A stretch of 64,000 bases of DNA from assembly GCF_008830185.1 (NCBI RefSeq), contig NZ_WAGX01000004.1:620001-684000 (forward strand), written 5' to 3'. Source of the stretch: Candidatus Galacturonatibacter soehngenii (lineage in GTDB: Bacteria > Bacillota > Clostridia > Lachnospirales > Lachnospiraceae). The notes under the pieces are model-generated. The model ran no database searches and was not told where the DNA came from. It saw only the letters and a program-made list of their open reading frames with translations. A program made the translations under genes and the position numbers. This document shows, in pieces, positions 3,465-13,027 of this stretch (position 1 is the first letter of the stretch; every line of letters begins with the position of its first letter).

Positions 3465-4793
3465 TTATTTCACGTATGTATCGTCTACAATAGAAAGTAC
3501 TTCATCTACTTTCACTAATTCTTCTACTAATTGCTCCTTTGTAATAATAAGCGGAGGTGCAATTAATATCATATTCTCATGGGTATAGGTCATAAATTTA
3601 CGTTCTTTAAGAAGTCCTAATATCTTACCCATGATGCCTTGTGTATCTTTTCCATAAGGAACTAACGCTTCTTTTGTTTCTTTGCTTTTAACTAGCTCAA
3701 TTGCTGAAAACAAACCAATGTATCGAACATCTCCAACACAATCATGCGACGCTTTTAATTCTTCTAGTTTCTCACCTAATAGCATACCAACTTCATTGAC
3801 ATTGTCAAGTATATTTGCTTCTTCATAGTAATTCACACAAGCAACACCTGCCGCACAAGAGAGTGGGTGACCACTATAAGTAAGTCCACAAGACAATAAA
3901 TTATCATCAAAATAAGCTGCAATTTCTTTGGTTACTACCACGCCACCAAGTGGTACATAACCACAAGTAACTCCCTTTGCAAAGGTTACGATGTCTGGTT
4001 TGATATCAAAATGTTCAAATGCAAACATTTTTCCAGTACGACACCAGCCAGTCATTACCTCATCACATATCATCAATATTCCATATTTATCACAAAGAGC
4101 ACGAACACCAGACATATAACCCTTTGGTGGTATTAAGATACCGTTTGAGCCTGTTATGGTCTCCATTACAATTGCCGCTATGCTGTCTGTTCCTTCGTAC
4201 TGAATCTGTTCTTCTAACTTGGTCAAATAATATTTGGTAGCTGCTTCTTCTGATTCAAAGTCAACTGCTTCTCTGTATACATATGGATCAAAGAATTTAA
4301 TAAAACCAGGTACACCAGGTTCTAAGGCATATCTTCTTGGCTCACCTGTCAAATTACCCGCCCCAAAAGAAGATCCATGATAACTTCTATATCGGCTAAA
4401 TATTTTATGTTTTCCTGTAAACATTCTTGCTATTTTTACTGCATTTTCATTCGACTCGGCACCTGCATTGGTAAAGAATACTTTTCCCATATTTTCAGGC
4501 ATCAATTTAATAATTCTTTTTGCAAGTTCTGCCCTTGACTCGGCTCCGTATGATGGACCTACAAAGCAAAACTGATCCACTTGATCTTTGATTGCTTGGT
4601 TAATTGCCTGATTGCCAAAACCAAGATTCATATTTACAAGTTGTGAGGACATATCCGTATAGCGATTGCCTTCGTAATCCCAAAAATAAATACCCTCTGC
4701 TTTTTCAACTGGTATTGGGTTTAGATTCTTTTGCTTACTCCAGGATTGTAAATTATATTCTTTTAGTGTACGTTTAATCTCTTCACCGTTCAT
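3465..4793 (-). CDS. toa: Class III aminotransferase, taurine:2-oxoglutarate aminotransferase-like
   Basis: A 442-residue PLP-dependent omega-aminotransferase of fold type I. The cofactor lysine is K273 in FAKGVTCG, the pyridine-binding aspartate is D244 in CDEVMTG, and the YHG element is at 138-140. The N-terminal block SWSKQKNLNPIPVEKAEGIY followed by WDYEGNRYTDMSSQL is, from memory, characteristic of taurine:2-oxoglutarate aminotransferases rather than of ornithine or GABA aminotransferases. That identification is recollection, not a search. It would convert taurine to sulfoacetaldehyde and glutamate. The gene follows a PucR-type regulator and precedes an iron alcohol dehydrogenase and an SsuBC/TauBC-type transporter, which supports an aminosulfonate nitrogen-scavenging role. 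Beta-alanine or another omega-amine remains possible. Confidence 0.72.
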   Translation of the reverse strand: MNGEEIKRTLKEYNLQSWSKQKNLNPIPVEKAEGIYFWDYEGNRYTDMSSQLVNMNLGFGNQAINQAIKDQVDQFCFVGPSYGAESRAELAKRIIKLMPENMGKVFFTNAGAESNENAVKIARMFTGKHKIFSRYRSYHGSSFGAGNLTGEPRRYALEPGVPGFIKFFDPYVYREAVDFESEEAATKYYLTKLEEQIQYEGTDSIAAIVMETITGSNGILIPPKGYMSGVRALCDKYGILMICDEVMTGWCRTGKMFAFEHFDIKPDIVTFAKGVTCGYVPLGGVVVTKEIAAYFDDNLLSCGLTYSGHPLSCAAGVACVNYYEEANILDNVNEVGMLLGEKLEELKASHDCVGDVRYIGLFSAIELVKSKETKEALVPYGKDTQGIMGKILGLLKERKFMTYTHENMILIAPPLIITKEQLVEELVKVDEVLSIVDDTYVK

Positions 4794-4810
4794 CTTCCAT
4801 ATCCTCCTAC

Positions 4811-4853
4811 AAAAAAAGCAGCAAACCGATAGCTTTGATAGCTTCGTCGCTGC
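4811..4853 (-). terminator. Terminator-like hairpin in the aminotransferase leader
   Basis: Read on the minus strand, GCAGC (4853-4849) pairs with GCTGC (4822-4818), with an inner CGA-AGCT/AGCT-A-TCG stem, and is followed directly by seven T (4817-4811). The ribosome binding site of the aminotransferase begins right after the T run. The hairpin lies between the predicted promoter and the gene, so it could attenuate transcription. Confidence 0.45.
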
Positions 4854-4878
4854 AATTAATCATGTTTAATATGGTAGT

Positions 4879-4908
4879 ATTATAAACATGGTCAGGCATA
4901 GTTTGCAA
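4879..4908 (-). promoter_or_regulatory. Predicted sigma-A promoter of the aminotransferase operon
   Basis: On the minus strand a -35 element TTGCAA (4908-4903) and a -10 element TATAAT (4884-4879) are separated by 18 bp. Transcription would start near 4871 and give a leader of about 75 nt. An 8-bp inverted repeat, CATGTTTA/TAAACATG (4861-4868 and 4883-4890), overlaps the -10 box and could be an operator. Confidence 0.5.
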
Positions 4909-4929
4909 CTAACAAGTGAACAAATATAT

Positions 4930-4945
4930 TTGTGCAGTTGCACAA
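4930..4945. promoter_or_regulatory. Palindrome TTGTGCA-GT-TGCACAA, candidate PucR-family site
   Basis: A perfect 7-2-7 palindrome lies just downstream of the regulator's stop codon and about 20 bp upstream of the -35 box of the aminotransferase promoter. That is the position expected for an activator site. Binding by the PucR-like protein is inference. Confidence 0.4.
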
Positions 4946-6106
4946 TTAAATAATATCTTGAATATAAAATCCCAGATATAACTTTACTTTATCCTCTAAT
5001 TCAAGCGGATTAAAGCCTGTAATTTTCTCGATTTTTTTCAACTGGTTGGTTACTGTATTACGATGAATGTACATTTTTTCAGAAACCAACTGAAGACTTG
5101 CGTTATTTTCTAAATAGGTTTTCAGTAGCAAGAGCAAATCCGTTTGATTTTCTCTGTCGTATTTTTCCAAAAGGCCAATCGTATCATTGTAAAAACTTCT
5201 TAGCACTGTCTTATCATTTACTGCATAGAGAATCTTATAAACGCTTAAATAGTCGTAGTATAACACATATTCCTTTTGCTTTTTTGCCATCTCCATTGCA
5301 GATATTGCCTTTTCAAAATTTTGTTCTTGATTGTAAATCCCTGCTTGGTTGGAACTAACACCCATATGAATCACATATTCTTTTTTCTTTGCTTTTACAT
5401 AATCTAAGAAATCCTTACAAAAGCTTTCGATTTCTTCATCGGTATAATCAACCAATACAAAGACTAGATTTTCTTTATAGGTAAAGGAAATAAATAGTTC
5501 CCGAATTCTTCTAGCCGTCTTTTCTGCATGAATGTTAAGCTCATCCATATATTCTTCCAAAGAAACCTGCTCTTTTGCTTCCATGTAAAGGCTAATAAAG
5601 CAAAATCGGTCACTTCGCTTATATCCATAACGTTCCATCTGTAGTATTTGAGACTCCAAGTCTCCAATGTTAAAAATAATATTTTTAATCGTTGATGCCA
5701 TACTATTTTCTACCGTATCATTCATCATAATACGTCGGCAAAAATCCCTTGTCATGTCAACCATTCTAGTCTCCCAAGGTATCGTAAATAACGGCATATT
5801 TACTTCGTCACAGTACTCAACTACTTCCTTTGGAATTTCTTTTGTGTGAGGACCTAGATTTACTACAAATGCACTAACGCCTGAGTCATTTAATTTTTTT
5901 GCAAATTCCAAAAGCCAGTCTTTCGTCTTATTCAATATTCCAGCCGTAAATACCAATTCATATCCATGTAAAAATGGACTCACCGCATCATCCTCAATGA
6001 TATGCACCCATTGAACCAGATTGTTCATTCCGTTTCTTCCTGCAATTAATTCCATTTTATATAAAAATGATGCATTCTTAACCAGCTTTTTAACAATGAT
6101 AGCCAT
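4946..6106 (-). CDS. PucR-family transcriptional regulator
   Basis: A 386-residue regulator. The N-terminal part (about 1-125, including LVQWVHIIEDDAVSPFLHG) matches the PucR N-terminal domain, the middle part resembles a GGDEF-like domain, and the C-terminus (about 330-380, SEKMYIHRNTVTNQLKKIE) is the PucR-type helix-turn-helix. Family members usually activate purine, amino-acid or amine catabolism genes in response to a small ligand. It is immediately upstream of the aminotransferase-dehydrogenase pair in the same direction, with 153 bp between them that hold a promoter-like sequence and a palindrome. The natural reading is that it controls that operon. Start chosen from a GGAGG 8 nt upstream of the ATG. 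Confidence 0.88.
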   Translation of the reverse strand: MAIIVKKLVKNASFLYKMELIAGRNGMNNLVQWVHIIEDDAVSPFLHGYELVFTAGILNKTKDWLLEFAKKLNDSGVSAFVVNLGPHTKEIPKEVVEYCDEVNMPLFTIPWETRMVDMTRDFCRRIMMNDTVENSMASTIKNIIFNIGDLESQILQMERYGYKRSDRFCFISLYMEAKEQVSLEEYMDELNIHAEKTARRIRELFISFTYKENLVFVLVDYTDEEIESFCKDFLDYVKAKKKEYVIHMGVSSNQAGIYNQEQNFEKAISAMEMAKKQKEYVLYYDYLSVYKILYAVNDKTVLRSFYNDTIGLLEKYDRENQTDLLLLLKTYLENNASLQLVSEKMYIHRNTVTNQLKKIEKITGFNPLELEDKVKLYLGFYIQDII

Positions 6107-8108: not shown

Positions 8109-8330
8109 ATCAATTCCTCCTCTTATTATAAGATGCCTACATAGATAATTTTACCTTTTACTGCTATTATTATTGTATCAAATCGCCAGTACAATGGCTA
8201 GCCAAGTTACATATTTATTAAAACAATTGCTCACTCTACGATACGTTGATTGTAAAATATCCTAAAACCCATTAAAATGTATGAGTAAAGTGTACTACCT
8301 TACATCAATCCAAAAAGGAGGTTTTAACGG

Positions 8331-8996: not shown

Positions 8997-9581
8997 ATGC
9001 AACAAAATAACCTTGGACAAATCATTCGTTCTTTTCGTCTAGAACAAAACCTGACACAAAAGCAACTCGCTGACATAATGAACCTAAGCGACAAAACGAT
9101 TTCAAAGTGGGAACGTGGCTTAGGTTTTCCTGATATCTCTTTACTTGTGAAGCTTTCAGATATACTAGGAATTGACACACAGAATCTATTAGCAGGCAAT
9201 CTATTACCAAATGATTTTGTAAGTGGTAATATGAAACAAACCAAATATTTTATTTGTCCCACTTGTCATAATATTACACTTTGTACCGGAGCCGCAGAGG
9301 TCTCTTGCTGTGGCAAAAAGTTAAGTCCTAAGCAGTTGAAAAAAGCAAAGGAAGATGAAACACTCTCAGTCCATGTGATTGAAAATGATTGGTTTATTAC
9401 AAGTGAACATCCAATGACAAAGACGCATTATATCTCCTTTGTGGCACTTGTAACTGGTGAACGCATTCAGATAATTAAGCAATATCCAGAATGGAATTTA
9501 AGCGTACGTGTACCAAAAGGTGGACATGAAATGCTTCTTTGGTTTTGTACCCAGCACGGCTTGTTTTATCAATTGTTGTAG
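8997..9581 (+). CDS. XRE-type HTH regulator fused to a desulfoferrodoxin (superoxide reductase) module
   Basis: 194 residues in three parts. Residues 6-62 are an XRE helix-turn-helix (LTQKQLADIMNLSDKTISKW). Residues 82-110 look like a desulforedoxin centre: C87, C90, C104 and C105 with the CPTC and CCG signatures. Residues 120-194 look like the catalytic superoxide reductase domain. EHPMTKTHYI gives H138 and H144 at the family's six-residue spacing, CTQHGLF gives C184 and H187 at its three-residue spacing, and H126 is the likely fifth ligand. All iron ligands of a 2Fe superoxide reductase thus appear conserved. It may be a redox-sensing repressor, a DNA-tethered detoxifier, or both. The last 15 codons lie in a segment that is repeated at 11604. 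RBS GGGAGG. Confidence 0.8.
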   Translation: MQQNNLGQIIRSFRLEQNLTQKQLADIMNLSDKTISKWERGLGFPDISLLVKLSDILGIDTQNLLAGNLLPNDFVSGNMKQTKYFICPTCHNITLCTGAAEVSCCGKKLSPKQLKKAKEDETLSVHVIENDWFITSEHPMTKTHYISFVALVTGERIQIIKQYPEWNLSVRVPKGGHEMLLWFCTQHGLFYQLL

Positions 9582-10048
9582 TCTATTAACCTATCGGTAT
9601 ATGAAATATTACCTTTGCTCCATGTGAATCTGCATCGTTTTCTAAAATCAGATAACCACCATGTTGTTTTGCAACCGAATCGGCAATATAAAGTCCCATC
9701 CCATAGTGTGACTTTACATTTCGACTCCTATCTCCCATATAGAATTGTTCGGTTGCATGCTTTAAGGCTTCTTGTGTAAATCCCTCTCCGTTATCACAAA
9801 TGGAAAAAATCAGATACCCCTTCTCTTCTTCTATCTCAATCGTTATGACTCCATCTTGTAAAGTATGCTCAACCGCATTGGCCACTACATTGTTGATTGC
9901 TCTTTCTAGCAGACTATCATCCACTTGAATCCACTTTGATTGATAGCATTCGTTCCAAACCAGTTGGATATGTTTTACCATACATAGACCATTTGCTTGC
10001 CTCTTAACATTTTGTAGGAATTCAGCTATTGCTATCTTATTAAATTTA
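9536..10048. repeat. 513-bp duplicated segment, copy A
   Basis: Bases 9536-10048 match 11604-12116 at a constant offset of 2068 with no gaps. I found two differences (9552 and 9554). The segment holds the last codons of the HTH-desulfoferrodoxin gene and the 3' third of the histidine kinase gene. The near identity suggests a recent event. Confidence 0.93.
9586..10048 (-). pseudogene. 3' fragment of the histidine kinase gene (copy of 11654-13027)
   Basis: This encodes only the ATPase end of the kinase, identical in protein sequence over the last 131 residues to the intact kinase at 11654-13027 (N-box NNVVANAVEHTL, G1-box DNGEGF, G2-box GMGLYIADSV). It lacks the membrane sensor and the histidine box because the repeat ends at 10048. 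An internal ATG at 9981 could start a 131-residue ATPase-only protein, but no ribosome binding site stands out there. I treat it as a by-product of the duplication. It converges with the HTH-desulfoferrodoxin gene, leaving only four bases between the stops. Confidence 0.85.
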
Positions 10049-10442: not shown

Positions 10443-11219
10443 TTGAAAAAACTTATAGCATTTTTTTTAACAGTAGTAATGATAGGCTTACCAGTTATAC
10501 CAAGTATGGCTACAACTACTACTGCAACTTTATCAAGAGATAAAAAAAATAGTATTGAAAAAATTATTGCTAATACACCATATGAACAAAGAGAAGATAG
10601 CCTTAAAGAGTTATTAAATTCAACTAATAAAACAGCAAACATTACTCCTTCACTTAAAAGTAATACAAATAATGTTAATGAAAAAGATATTACTTATGTT
10701 GAAGCTCAGATAGATGAAACTGTTAATATTGATGAAGATACTTCTATTGTGTTTTTTACATCAGGTGATTTTCTTGTATATGATACTGTAGATACTGTAG
10801 ATATGCCTGTCATGTTAAATACGTGTGCTACAAATTATATATATGCAAATAACAAAGCTTCGTCATATACTTCAACTAAAAAGTCAGTAGCTTCAGCATA
10901 TAACGCATTAGGTTATATTATATTGGAAGTATGGGCAGAAGGATATTTTTCTTATAATGGTTCTTCTACACCAACTCCATATATGGTAGATTATGATTAT
11001 GAGAAATATGGAGTTTTAAATGCGTGGAATGTAGAGAATTGGAAAGGTGGCACTAGCACAAATGCTTCCAATAAAACGGCACAATTTAAAGCTTCTGGTA
11101 CATTTGGATGGGGGCTTTCATGGAAAGACAACCATTGGAACATGCAAACTTATACCATAACAGTTGGATATAAATGTACTAAAGCAGGAAAAACTCAAAG
11201 TATCAAAAGTGGAATCTAA
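10443..11219 (+). CDS. Secreted protein of unknown family
   Basis: A 258-residue protein starting at a TTG with AAGGGGG 8 bp upstream. A Sec signal peptide (KK, then a hydrophobic stretch) probably ends at SMA, residue 24. Residues 25-125 are hydrophilic with many Asn, Thr and Ser. The C-terminal half (about 130-258) is rich in aromatic residues and glycine (AYNALGYIILEVWAEGYF, WKGGTS, FGWGLSWKDNHW) and looks like a compact beta-rich extracellular domain with only two cysteines (about 127 and 246). I do not recognise the family. It sits next to a LanFEG/Cpr-type immunity locus and inside a recently duplicated or inserted segment, so a bacteriocin-like or cell-surface role is possible but unproven. 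Confidence 0.75.
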   Translation: MKKLIAFFLTVVMIGLPVIPSMATTTTATLSRDKKNSIEKIIANTPYEQREDSLKELLNSTNKTANITPSLKSNTNNVNEKDITYVEAQIDETVNIDEDTSIVFFTSGDFLVYDTVDTVDMPVMLNTCATNYIYANNKASSYTSTKKSVASAYNALGYIILEVWAEGYFSYNGSSTPTPYMVDYDYEKYGVLNAWNVENWKGGTSTNASNKTAQFKASGTFGWGLSWKDNHWNMQTYTITVGYKCTKAGKTQSIKSGI

Positions 11220-11400: not shown

Positions 11401-11606
11401 ACATGTTCATACTTCGTTGTTTTCGTGTTGGGTGGAAGGCATTCATGTCCTTCAATCTCTCCATAATGCTAAGTAAATGAATGCGACAATTGTTTTTATT
11501 TTTATCTAATGTTAGTTGATCAGTTGCTTTTATTTTTTCATCCTTTTTCTCTTCTACTTCTTCTTTTACTTTTTCATTTTCATTATTTGCCATAAAAAAA
11601 TCCTCT
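11401..11606 (-). pseudogene. 5' fragment of the ClpP-like gene (copy of about 17701-17909)
   Basis: The first 42 codons match those of the intact ClpP/TepA-like gene at 17087-17899 except for one residue. A one-base deletion then shifts the frame, and similarity at DNA level continues to about 11401. Over about 205 bp I count roughly six substitutions and two single-base gaps, so this copy is older or faster-changing than the 513-bp repeat. It includes the ribosome binding site region and joins directly to the right copy of the 513-bp repeat at about 11603. Confidence 0.88.
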
Positions 11607-12116
11607 TTGGTTTTGTACCAAACACGGCTTGTTTTATCAATTGTTGTAGTCTATTAACCTATCGGTATATGAAATATTACCTTTGCTCCATGTGAATCTG
11701 CATCGTTTTCTAAAATCAGATAACCACCATGTTGTTTTGCAACCGAATCGGCAATATAAAGTCCCATCCCATAGTGTGACTTTACATTTCGACTCCTATC
11801 TCCCATATAGAATTGTTCGGTTGCATGCTTTAAGGCTTCTTGTGTAAATCCCTCTCCGTTATCACAAATGGAAAAAATCAGATACCCCTTCTCTTCTTCT
11901 ATCTCAATCGTTATGACTCCATCTTGTAAAGTATGCTCAACCGCATTGGCCACTACATTGTTGATTGCTCTTTCTAGCAGACTATCATCCACTTGAATCC
12001 ACTTTGATTGATAGCATTCGTTCCAAACCAGTTGGATATGTTTTACCATACATAGACCATTTGCTTGCCTCTTAACATTTTGTAGGAATTCAGCTATTGC
12101 TATCTTATTAAATTTA
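11604..12116. repeat. 513-bp duplicated segment, copy B
   Basis: Partner of 9536-10048. Here the kinase part is continuous with the full kinase gene, while the first 45 bases are an orphan 3' tail of the HTH-desulfoferrodoxin gene (CTKHGLFYQLL in place of CTQHGLFYQLL). This shows that the ancestral order was HTH gene directly convergent with the kinase gene. Confidence 0.93.
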
Positions 12117-13027
12117 GCTTGCATACCATCATTTGATTTGGTGACCTCCATTAATAACTGTACATAATCTTGTATTTTACGTGTATTCGTTTTTATATAA
12201 TCAAGGCACTCTAACTGCTCTGTGGATGGATTGGTATCATACAATAAGTCTGTATTACCTAAAATTAACGTCAATGGTGTTTTTAGATCGTGTGCCAGTG
12301 CAGACATTTGCTCTTTTTTTAACTGCTCCATCTTCCACTGACTTTCAAGCGAATGCTTTAGTTCATTTCGCATATTATCCATAGAAGCTAGAACCTGATT
12401 TAATTCCTTAATATTACCTAGTTGAATGGCAAAATCCAATTCTTGATTTTGAATCTTTTGTGTTGCAAGAATCAGTGGATTCAATTTTTTATTAAGAACA
12501 TGTCCAAAACGAATTGCAACACAAATTAGACTTAATAGAATCAAAAGTATTGTGATTATGAAGATAGCTGTTTGGGGAGGTAGCACGTATTGCCGTAAAA
12601 ATGCGGATTTATATTGTGGAACAATCTGATATCGCAGAACACAATATTCATTCTTTCTTTTAATCACCTTGTAGTAATTGCCGTAAATGTCAGATTTACT
12701 TCCCTCTACCGCTTTCCAAGCATGCTCTATTCCTCGCTCCTTTATAATACTTCCATCTATTCTATTTCCGTCTTGATCAAACACCACATATTGACATAAT
12801 TCTGGAATCAAGTCTTTGGTTACCACCTCTGAGTTTAAAATTGTTTCATAGGCTAAATTTGCCTGTTCCTGCGCATAATCTGCCCGATAAATTGTATTGC
12901 TAGAAAACAAAAGGCCTAACGTGATAAAAACAAGAAGAGCAATCAAAATGACACTTAAAAACACATACCCAAAATATTTAAGATAAAACAAACTAAGAGA
13001 GATCTCTCTTTTCTTTATCCTTCCCAT
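11654..13027 (-). CDS. Sensor histidine kinase of the peptide-resistance locus (CprK/VanS-like)
   Basis: A 457-residue membrane kinase. There are two membrane segments (about 12-38 and 150-175) around a roughly 110-residue extracellular loop, then a HAMP-like linker, the H-box SALAHDLKTPLTLILGN with its histidine at about 245, and the N, G1 and G2 ATP-binding boxes. It partners with the response regulator, overlapping its 3' end by 13 bp. It lies directly downstream of a LanFEG/Cpr-type ABC transporter, so it probably senses antimicrobial peptides or lipid II-binding lantibiotics. The last third is duplicated at 9586-10048. Confidence 0.88.
   Translation of the reverse strand: MGRIKKREISLSLFYLKYFGYVFLSVILIALLVFITLGLLFSSNTIYRADYAQEQANLAYETILNSEVVTKDLIPELCQYVVFDQDGNRIDGSIIKERGIEHAWKAVEGSKSDIYGNYYKVIKRKNEYCVLRYQIVPQYKSAFLRQYVLPPQTAIFIITILLILLSLICVAIRFGHVLNKKLNPLILATQKIQNQELDFAIQLGNIKELNQVLASMDNMRNELKHSLESQWKMEQLKKEQMSALAHDLKTPLTLILGNTDLLYDTNPSTEQLECLDYIKTNTRKIQDYVQLLMEVTKSNDGMQAKFNKIAIAEFLQNVKRQANGLCMVKHIQLVWNECYQSKWIQVDDSLLERAINNVVANAVEHTLQDGVITIEIEEEKGYLIFSICDNGEGFTQEALKHATEQFYMGDRSRNVKSHYGMGLYIADSVAKQHGGYLILENDADSHGAKVIFHIPIG

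Follow-up and report, generated by a model that had tools for sequence, protein, structure and literature searches.

An XRE-family protein with a putative desulfoferrodoxin-derived redox sensor in Candidatus Galacturonatibacter soehngenii, its predicted operator and a small predicted regulon

The last gene of a three-gene operon in Candidatus Galacturonatibacter soehngenii encodes a helix-turn-helix (HTH) domain, a desulforedoxin (Dx) metal site and a superoxide reductase (SOR)-like domain in one chain, an architecture termed HTH-Dx-SOR. Judging from sequence comparisons, this protein is probably a local, redox-sensing one-component transcription factor of the XRE family, which would control a small regulon through a palindromic operator, probably as an activator, and whose sensor would derive from desulfoferrodoxin. 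The evidence lies in its domains, the state of its metal ligands, an operator with a recurring promoter geometry and a predicted regulon (Table 1). The gene lies in a stretch of 64,000 nucleotides (the window), for which an initial annotation had proposed an HTH regulator fused to an apparently complete two-iron superoxide reductase, either sensing and removing superoxide or using the iron site purely as a redox sensor.

Table 1. Features of the window, with window positions, and sites found away from HTH-Dx-SOR genes in other carrier genomes, with locus handles
Feature	Position	Strand	Basis or remarks
Operator TCTACGATACGTTGA (family consensus TCTACGnnnCGTAGA)	8235..8249	+	predicted binding site of the HTH-Dx-SOR dimer
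Promoter: -35 TTGTAA 8250-8255, 17-nt spacer, -10 TAAAAT 8273-8278	8250..8278	+	scan and family geometry
First gene: small GIY-YIG-fold protein, 114 aa	8331..8675	+	TIGR01453, E 4e-7, under its cut-off
Second gene: DUF2087 protein, 88 aa	8678..8944	+	PF09860, E 6.4e-24
Third gene: HTH-Dx-SOR, 194 aa	8997..9581	+	XRE HTH, desulforedoxin and SOR-like domain; predicted regulator
Centre I Cys codons 87-105 (C87, C90, C104, C105)	9255..9311	+	ORF translation and alignments
Codon 121: Glu where SOR has its first catalytic His	9357..9359	+	pairwise, multiple and profile alignments
Remaining centre II ligands: H138 9408-9410, H144 9426-9428, C184 9546-9548, H187 9555-9557	9408..9557	+	alignment
Distal site: CAT-family acetyltransferase			L202, L254
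Distal site: DUF2087-CAT fusion			L203
Distal site: FMN reductase			L204, L207, L208
Distal site: DUF2087			L252; L205, behind an apparent duplicate of the regulator's promoter
Distal site: GIY-YIG-like, divergent subgroup			L217, L255; L217 matches the window's at E 2e-9
Distal site: GIY-YIG with DUF2087			L184, L251
Distal site: GIY-YIG with DUF2087 and FMN reductase			L257
Distal site: operon headed by an HTH-only 71-aa protein			L249 (GIY-YIG); L250 (GIY-YIG, DUF2087, CAT)

Domain architecture and fold

The Pfam family HTH_3 (PF01381) matches residues 10-61 of the window protein (E 1.1e-13; 51.4 bits against a cut-off of 23), which places it among XRE-family DNA-binding proteins as the initial annotation had read it. 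The Desulfoferrodox family (PF01880) matches residues 116-190 at 23.7 bits, narrowly above its cut-off of 22.2, and the NCBIfam equivalog TIGR00320 scores 24.6 bits, below its cut-off of 146.9. A structure model built from a 66-row alignment (mean pLDDT 88.2) has the desulfoferrodoxin-type fold; the top nine PDB matches comprise desulfoferrodoxins together with the SOR of Treponema pallidum (TMt 0.69-0.73), while the N-terminal part matches XRE-type DNA-binding domains (P22 c2, SinR and ImmR). The domain search and structure prediction, both of a kind suggested as checks, thus returned HTH_3, Desulfoferrodox and the desulfoferrodoxin-type fold, and together they indicate a real rather than a chance fusion.

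The fusion architecture is not new. The class HTH-Dx-SOR was published in 2011 in SORGOdb (PMC3116461), where it comprises 19 of 325 proteins with the same order of HTH, desulforedoxin and SOR domain. The window protein has the N-terminal helix-turn-helix and the desulforedoxin Cys4 motif of this class, and its desulforedoxin-like Cys set stands, as first noted, in register with that of desulfoferrodoxin, with a spacing of CX2C-X13-CC against the CXXCX15CC quoted by SORGOdb. All 325 proteins in SORGOdb are described as holding at least the active centre II domain. The SOR centre II domain of the window protein has the right fold and barely exceeds the PF01880 cut-off; it differs from the SORGOdb class in lacking one of five ligands, and 15 of 39 HTH-Dx-SORs in genomes of its family have all five. 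The SORGOdb passages on the class give no function, operator or regulon. A search of the open-access literature by title and beginning of abstract returned, besides SORGOdb, nothing on the fusion, on XRE domains with desulfoferrodoxin or on a regulon, and no experimental work; the candidates PMC12724145 and PMC8579941 concern unrelated proteins.

An incomplete catalytic site and retention of the desulforedoxin site

The catalytic iron site (centre II) was assigned from alignments in which E119-D120-E121 pairs with the SOR triplet Glu-Lys-His (phmmer to 2ji1; joint MAFFT with stand-alone SORs; hhalign, E 1.3e-22). The initial annotation had counted all five catalytic ligands. H138, H144, C184 and H187 are indeed present and in register with desulfoferrodoxin, but H126 does not occupy a ligand position; its column holds mostly Thr, Glu or Lys in SORs, and among 110 HTH-Dx-SORs it is His in seven, with His at column 121 in 89. 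Since Glu121 holds the first-His position, four of the five ligands remain, short of the four His and one Cys of a class I desulfoferrodoxin centre II, and a complete two-iron SOR was rejected on the ligand columns. The tuning Glu or Lys near the iron, which had been left unjudged, can be placed by the same alignments: the Glu is kept as E119, and Asp (D120) replaces the Lys. Compared with class I desulfoferrodoxins (2ji1, 1dfx, 1vzg), with which it shares the fold, the centre I Cys set and these four ligands, the window protein therefore has Glu for the first His and Asp for the Lys, and it further adds a DNA-binding domain, carries a three-residue deletion before HPM and has a shorter Cys spacing.

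The two metal sites have decayed in opposite directions in HTH-Dx-SORs and stand-alone SORs. The main comparison covers 150 genomes of the window's family, with all 39 of their HTH-Dx-SORs (one of them, L312, is cut short and scored as not whole) and 74 of 75 strongly matching stand-alone SORs, the omitted one (G104) carrying an internal stop. All 74 stand-alone SORs retain every one of the five ligands of centre II, together with the Glu-Lys pair that precedes the first His, a count to be read with the finding profile in mind, which covers centre II and may miss SORs without it; their centre I Cys set is intact in 60. Conversely, all 39 HTH-Dx-SORs retain the centre I ligands (the fourth being Cys in 21 and His in 18), and centre II is whole in only 15, with His at column 121 in 33, H138 in 38, H144 in 37, C184 in 38 and H187 in 20. 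The wider set of 110 HTH-Dx-SORs was picked by similarity to the window protein (the best 80 of 301, plus other fetched loci) and was aligned with 32 stand-alone SORs, mostly best-scoring and including one gene twice (L021 occupies the place of L139); the 150-genome comparison removes this choice by score or similarity. In the wider set, three Cys are present in 110/110 and the fourth ligand is Cys in 99 and His in 11, while centre II is whole in 70, with His at column 121 in 89, H138 in 110, H144 in 104, C184 in 104 and H187 in 83. The Lys before the first His is found in 11/110.

On a tree of the 110 rows (quick method, SH-aLRT support only, root not inferred), the state of centre II, whole or broken, changes at least 12 times, column 121 at least 11 times and column 187 at least 14 times. 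A branch with support 93, slightly under the level marked as well supported, sets apart 17 rows that include the window protein and of which none has His at 121; a set of 11 inside these reaches that level at 97. Its closest relative found, L026 (68% identity), has Ser184 and Tyr187, so that the Cys ligand and the last His are gone too. Opposite ligand retention and the tree together suggest that selection maintains the metal site of the desulforedoxin domain rather than catalysis. The lineage of the window protein shows this most clearly; its catalytic site is most likely a relic under relaxed constraint. A full SOR site persists in 70 of 110 relatives, so some members of the family may still rely on centre II.

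Two further variations were observed in the same genomes. In 14 of the 74 stand-alone SORs (e.g. L146, L149, L153, L285 and L296), the Dx Cys set is partly or wholly lost with centre II kept. Of the 18 HTH-Dx-SORs with His for the fourth Dx Cys, 17 have Asp at column 187 and the last is cut short; loci with this replacement include L117, L120-L122, L124, L125, L127 and L130-L133.

Operator and promoter geometry

An operator adjoining the -35 box of HTH-Dx-SOR genes is new here. The motif arose from an enumeration of inverted repeats, which is not counted as evidence. Within 300 nt upstream (1000 nt for the window), TCTACGnnnCGTAGA with at most two mismatches precedes 88 of 111 genes, where mononucleotide shuffles, which ignore dinucleotides, give 0.75; at three mismatches the count is 103 against 9.1. 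The 111 upstream regions include that of L042, which lacks C184 and H187 and was left out of the 110-protein counts.

The surroundings of the sites are also ordered. Anchored on the site, the consensus becomes AACTCTACGGAGCGTTTATTGAA, followed by the -10 box. TTG immediately follows the operator in 83/103 cases, a -10 hexamer with at least four of six matches lies at a spacer of 16-18 in 98/103 (29 in shuffles; 200 nt upstream scanned, further for L026, L039 and the window), and 55-75 nt separate operator and start codon in 88 of 100 sites. In the window, ACTCTACGnnnCGTnGATTG is matched exactly at 8233-8252, other matches in the same genome having three mismatches. The promoter scan of the window, with 8 promoter-like sites in 1.6 kb against 5.9 expected, is not evidence alone. 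With a 17-nt spacer, the operator centre would lie about 43 nt before the inferred transcription start. Class II activators bind around this position, which makes an activator the more likely role.

Operon and predicted regulon

The operator of the window precedes the GIY-YIG-like gene and not the regulator. The first protein has no Pfam GIY-YIG match; its model (pLDDT 76, from five sequences) has the I-TevI catalytic domain as top fold match (probability 1.00, E 0.04), and other genomes likewise have members of its family downstream of the operator. Its second motif (YIG) is not apparent, and the protein may thus be inactive as a nuclease. The second product is the sole match in its genome to DUF2087, a domain for which nucleic-acid binding has been proposed and which is associated with putative regulators (PMC7113386).

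The site of the operon is the only strong operator in its own genome, and the regulon there may therefore be just these three genes. At up to three mismatches, 11 matches are found (one exact, one its opposite strand) against 10 in the reversed control. A larger regulon in this genome was rejected on that total and because none of the eight loci inspected among the other nine holds a regulon family. The genome's only CAT-family match (C5:668273-668887) has no site among these matches.

Sites are common in other genomes with the gene. Of the 34 handles of carrier genomes, which stand for 33 assemblies should G056 and G163 be the same, 29 contain sites with no more than one mismatch (33 sites; two in the reversed control), and among 44 further handles, a set that excludes L084 and L095, 39 do (50 sites; again two in the control). 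Repeated assemblies, recognized by identical site coordinates, are G056/G163, G178/G523 and G407/G529, and the second site of G523 was counted once, as L217. Separation by hand of distal from own sites, based on coordinates, gave 18 distal sites in carriers: five from the 34-handle set, three from 348 genomes of the phylum and ten from the 44-handle set. Fifteen of them precede regulon families (GIY-YIG-like, DUF2087, CAT-family acetyltransferase and FMN reductase), which also neighbour HTH-Dx-SOR genes; gene identities are Pfam-backed for some only. All seven exact distal sites belong to these fifteen. The three others (L248, L253 and L256) have one mismatch each, those of L253 and L256 lying inside coding frames.

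Besides clostridia, HTH-Dx-SOR genes occur in Paenibacillus, Cohnella and Bacillus relatives. As a side observation, the HTH-only 71-aa paralogues of L249 (~1033-1245) and L250 (~1076-1290) have no sensor and head GIY-YIG operons under the same operator; they are possible competitors of the full regulator.

Proposed mechanism and alternatives

From these features we infer DNA binding, the kind of metal, a redox signal and activation over repression. The HTH-Dx-SOR dimer would bind the palindrome next to the -35 box of its own operon and, elsewhere, sites before GIY-YIG-like, DUF2087, CAT-family acetyltransferase and FMN reductase genes. The metal of the Dx site, probably Fe(Cys)4, would be oxidized by superoxide, O2 or redox-cycling compounds, and the oxidation would change the dimer and switch transcription, most likely on. 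The early proposal of a DNA-binding protein using its iron site as a redox sensor is thus supported indirectly, by the conserved Dx ligands together with the operator and the predicted regulon.

The composition of the regulon bears on what is sensed. Neighbours in 83 loci, including the window, comprise isochorismatase-type hydrolases (13), CAT (11), GIY-YIG (7) and DUF2087 (4) proteins, and a flavodoxin-ferredoxin protein and a flavin reductase are also found among or beside the targets. The FMN reductases, the flavodoxin-ferredoxin protein and the flavin reductase fit a response to redox stress or redox-cycling drugs. CAT, isochorismatase and GIY-YIG proteins are not classic oxidant defences, and the genes for the CAT-family and isochorismatase proteins would suit the modification of drugs or metabolites just as well. 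The metal could then be structural (Zn or Fe) and the protein a small-molecule sensor, for instance of a nitro- or phenol-type drug or an electrophile, with the CAT-family, FMN reductase and isochorismatase genes as its detoxifying output. A structural site would tolerate the His found as fourth Dx ligand in 11/110 and 18/39 proteins, and the Dx-type site could hold zinc instead of iron. Further, HTH-Dx-SOR carriers are not enriched for a stand-alone SOR (PF01880 at E 1e-13 or better), which occurs in 20 of 39 carriers and in 49 of the 111 genomes that lack the gene (p 0.46), and thus no direct link to superoxide defence appears. Against a small-molecule sensor stand the descent of the domain from a redox enzyme and the fact that most members keep H138 and the majority of the centre II ligands, something that a purely structural role would not require, and we consider it rather unlikely.

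The operator might instead belong to another regulator, the HTH-Dx-SOR gene being merely one of its targets. Binding of the site by the HTH-Dx-SOR protein is a prediction, and the site of the window, like those of L026 and L039, does not lie immediately upstream of the regulator gene: operator and gene order in L039 match those of the window, and in L026 the operator precedes the GIY-YIG gene. The distribution of the sites argues otherwise. Of the 348 phylum genomes, the gene occurs in 24 and an operator in 10 (12 sites against six in the reversed control, so that single-mismatch matches alone mean little), yet the gene is present in 7 of the 10 site-bearing genomes (Fisher p 3e-7). The three non-carriers (L210, L213 and L215) have single-mismatch matches in coding frames, which were taken as chance. 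In addition, the operators of all 11 proteins with the His-variant Dx site whose promoters were read end in GTAGG, an ending shared by some near relatives (L112, L113, L123 and L128), so operator and protein seem to vary together. Given also the site before 103 of 111 gene copies, control by another regulator is quite improbable.

A regulator that doubles as a superoxide reductase with a complete two-iron site would account for the correct fold, the four remaining ligands and the full set in 70/110 relatives, but is hardly credible for the window protein, which has lost the catalytic His and Lys, with the His absent from all 17 rows of its clade and further ligands lost in L026, and whose genome encodes a separate, normal 127-aa SOR with all ligands. 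The small ORF adjoining that SOR gene is rubredoxin-like (named by eye).

Relation to known regulators

The redox-sensing reading resembles SoxR in outline: a metal-centre redox switch would control a small set of genes for reductases and modifying enzymes. SoxR combines a MerR-type HTH with a C-terminal [2Fe-2S] Cys cluster, and its operator lies between the promoter hexamers. HTH-Dx-SOR has instead an XRE HTH, a Dx-type mononuclear site and an operator upstream of the -35 box, and is not a member of the SoxR family; among the matches listed for the window protein at E up to 1 there is no MerR, but HTH_3, beside the Dx-type Cys set. The SoxR regulon of Streptomyces coelicolor comprises six genes, including oxidoreductases, a monooxygenase, a flavoprotein reductase and an ABC transporter (PMC4146615). 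Lambda-type XRE activators share the HTH_3 domain and the operator position, the operator centre being near -42 for cI at PRM, and differ in having an unrelated sensor domain.

We see about an even chance that HTH-Dx-SOR is an SOR-built redox sensor convergent with SoxR: a module captured by a repressor-type HTH in many Bacillota, with the electron-transfer iron centre kept as sensor, catalysis lost several times and a previously undescribed regulon reached via a defined operator, whose targets include the conserved GIY-YIG/DUF2087 pair of no known function and the sensor-less HTH-only paralogues. It would then illustrate how an enzyme turned into a sensor, a change whose losses can be followed at individual residues and of which its enzyme cousins in the same genomes show the mirror image. 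The operator and regulon turn a catalogued domain curiosity into a testable regulatory circuit, which would give the uncharacterized DUF2087 proteins and the small GIY-YIG proteins a place in the response to redox or drug stress.

Adjacent DNA and a fused variant

The final codons of the regulator gene, together with the 3' end of a histidine kinase gene that converges on it (11654-13027, minus strand), are duplicated in a near-perfect direct repeat of ~510 nt (9536-10048 and 11604-12116, offset by 2068 nt). The repeats enclose ~1.5 kb of DNA with a lower GC content, in which 10443-11219 is a secreted-protein-like ORF; the arrangement looks like the integration of a circular element through a single crossover. 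In Clostridium sp. E02 (L042, ~4001-5161), the HTH-Dx-SOR frame runs into a flavodoxin-type FMN reductase before the Cys184 region, representing either a sensor-reductase fusion or a deletion; an FMN reductase of this kind lies downstream in L027 and L028.
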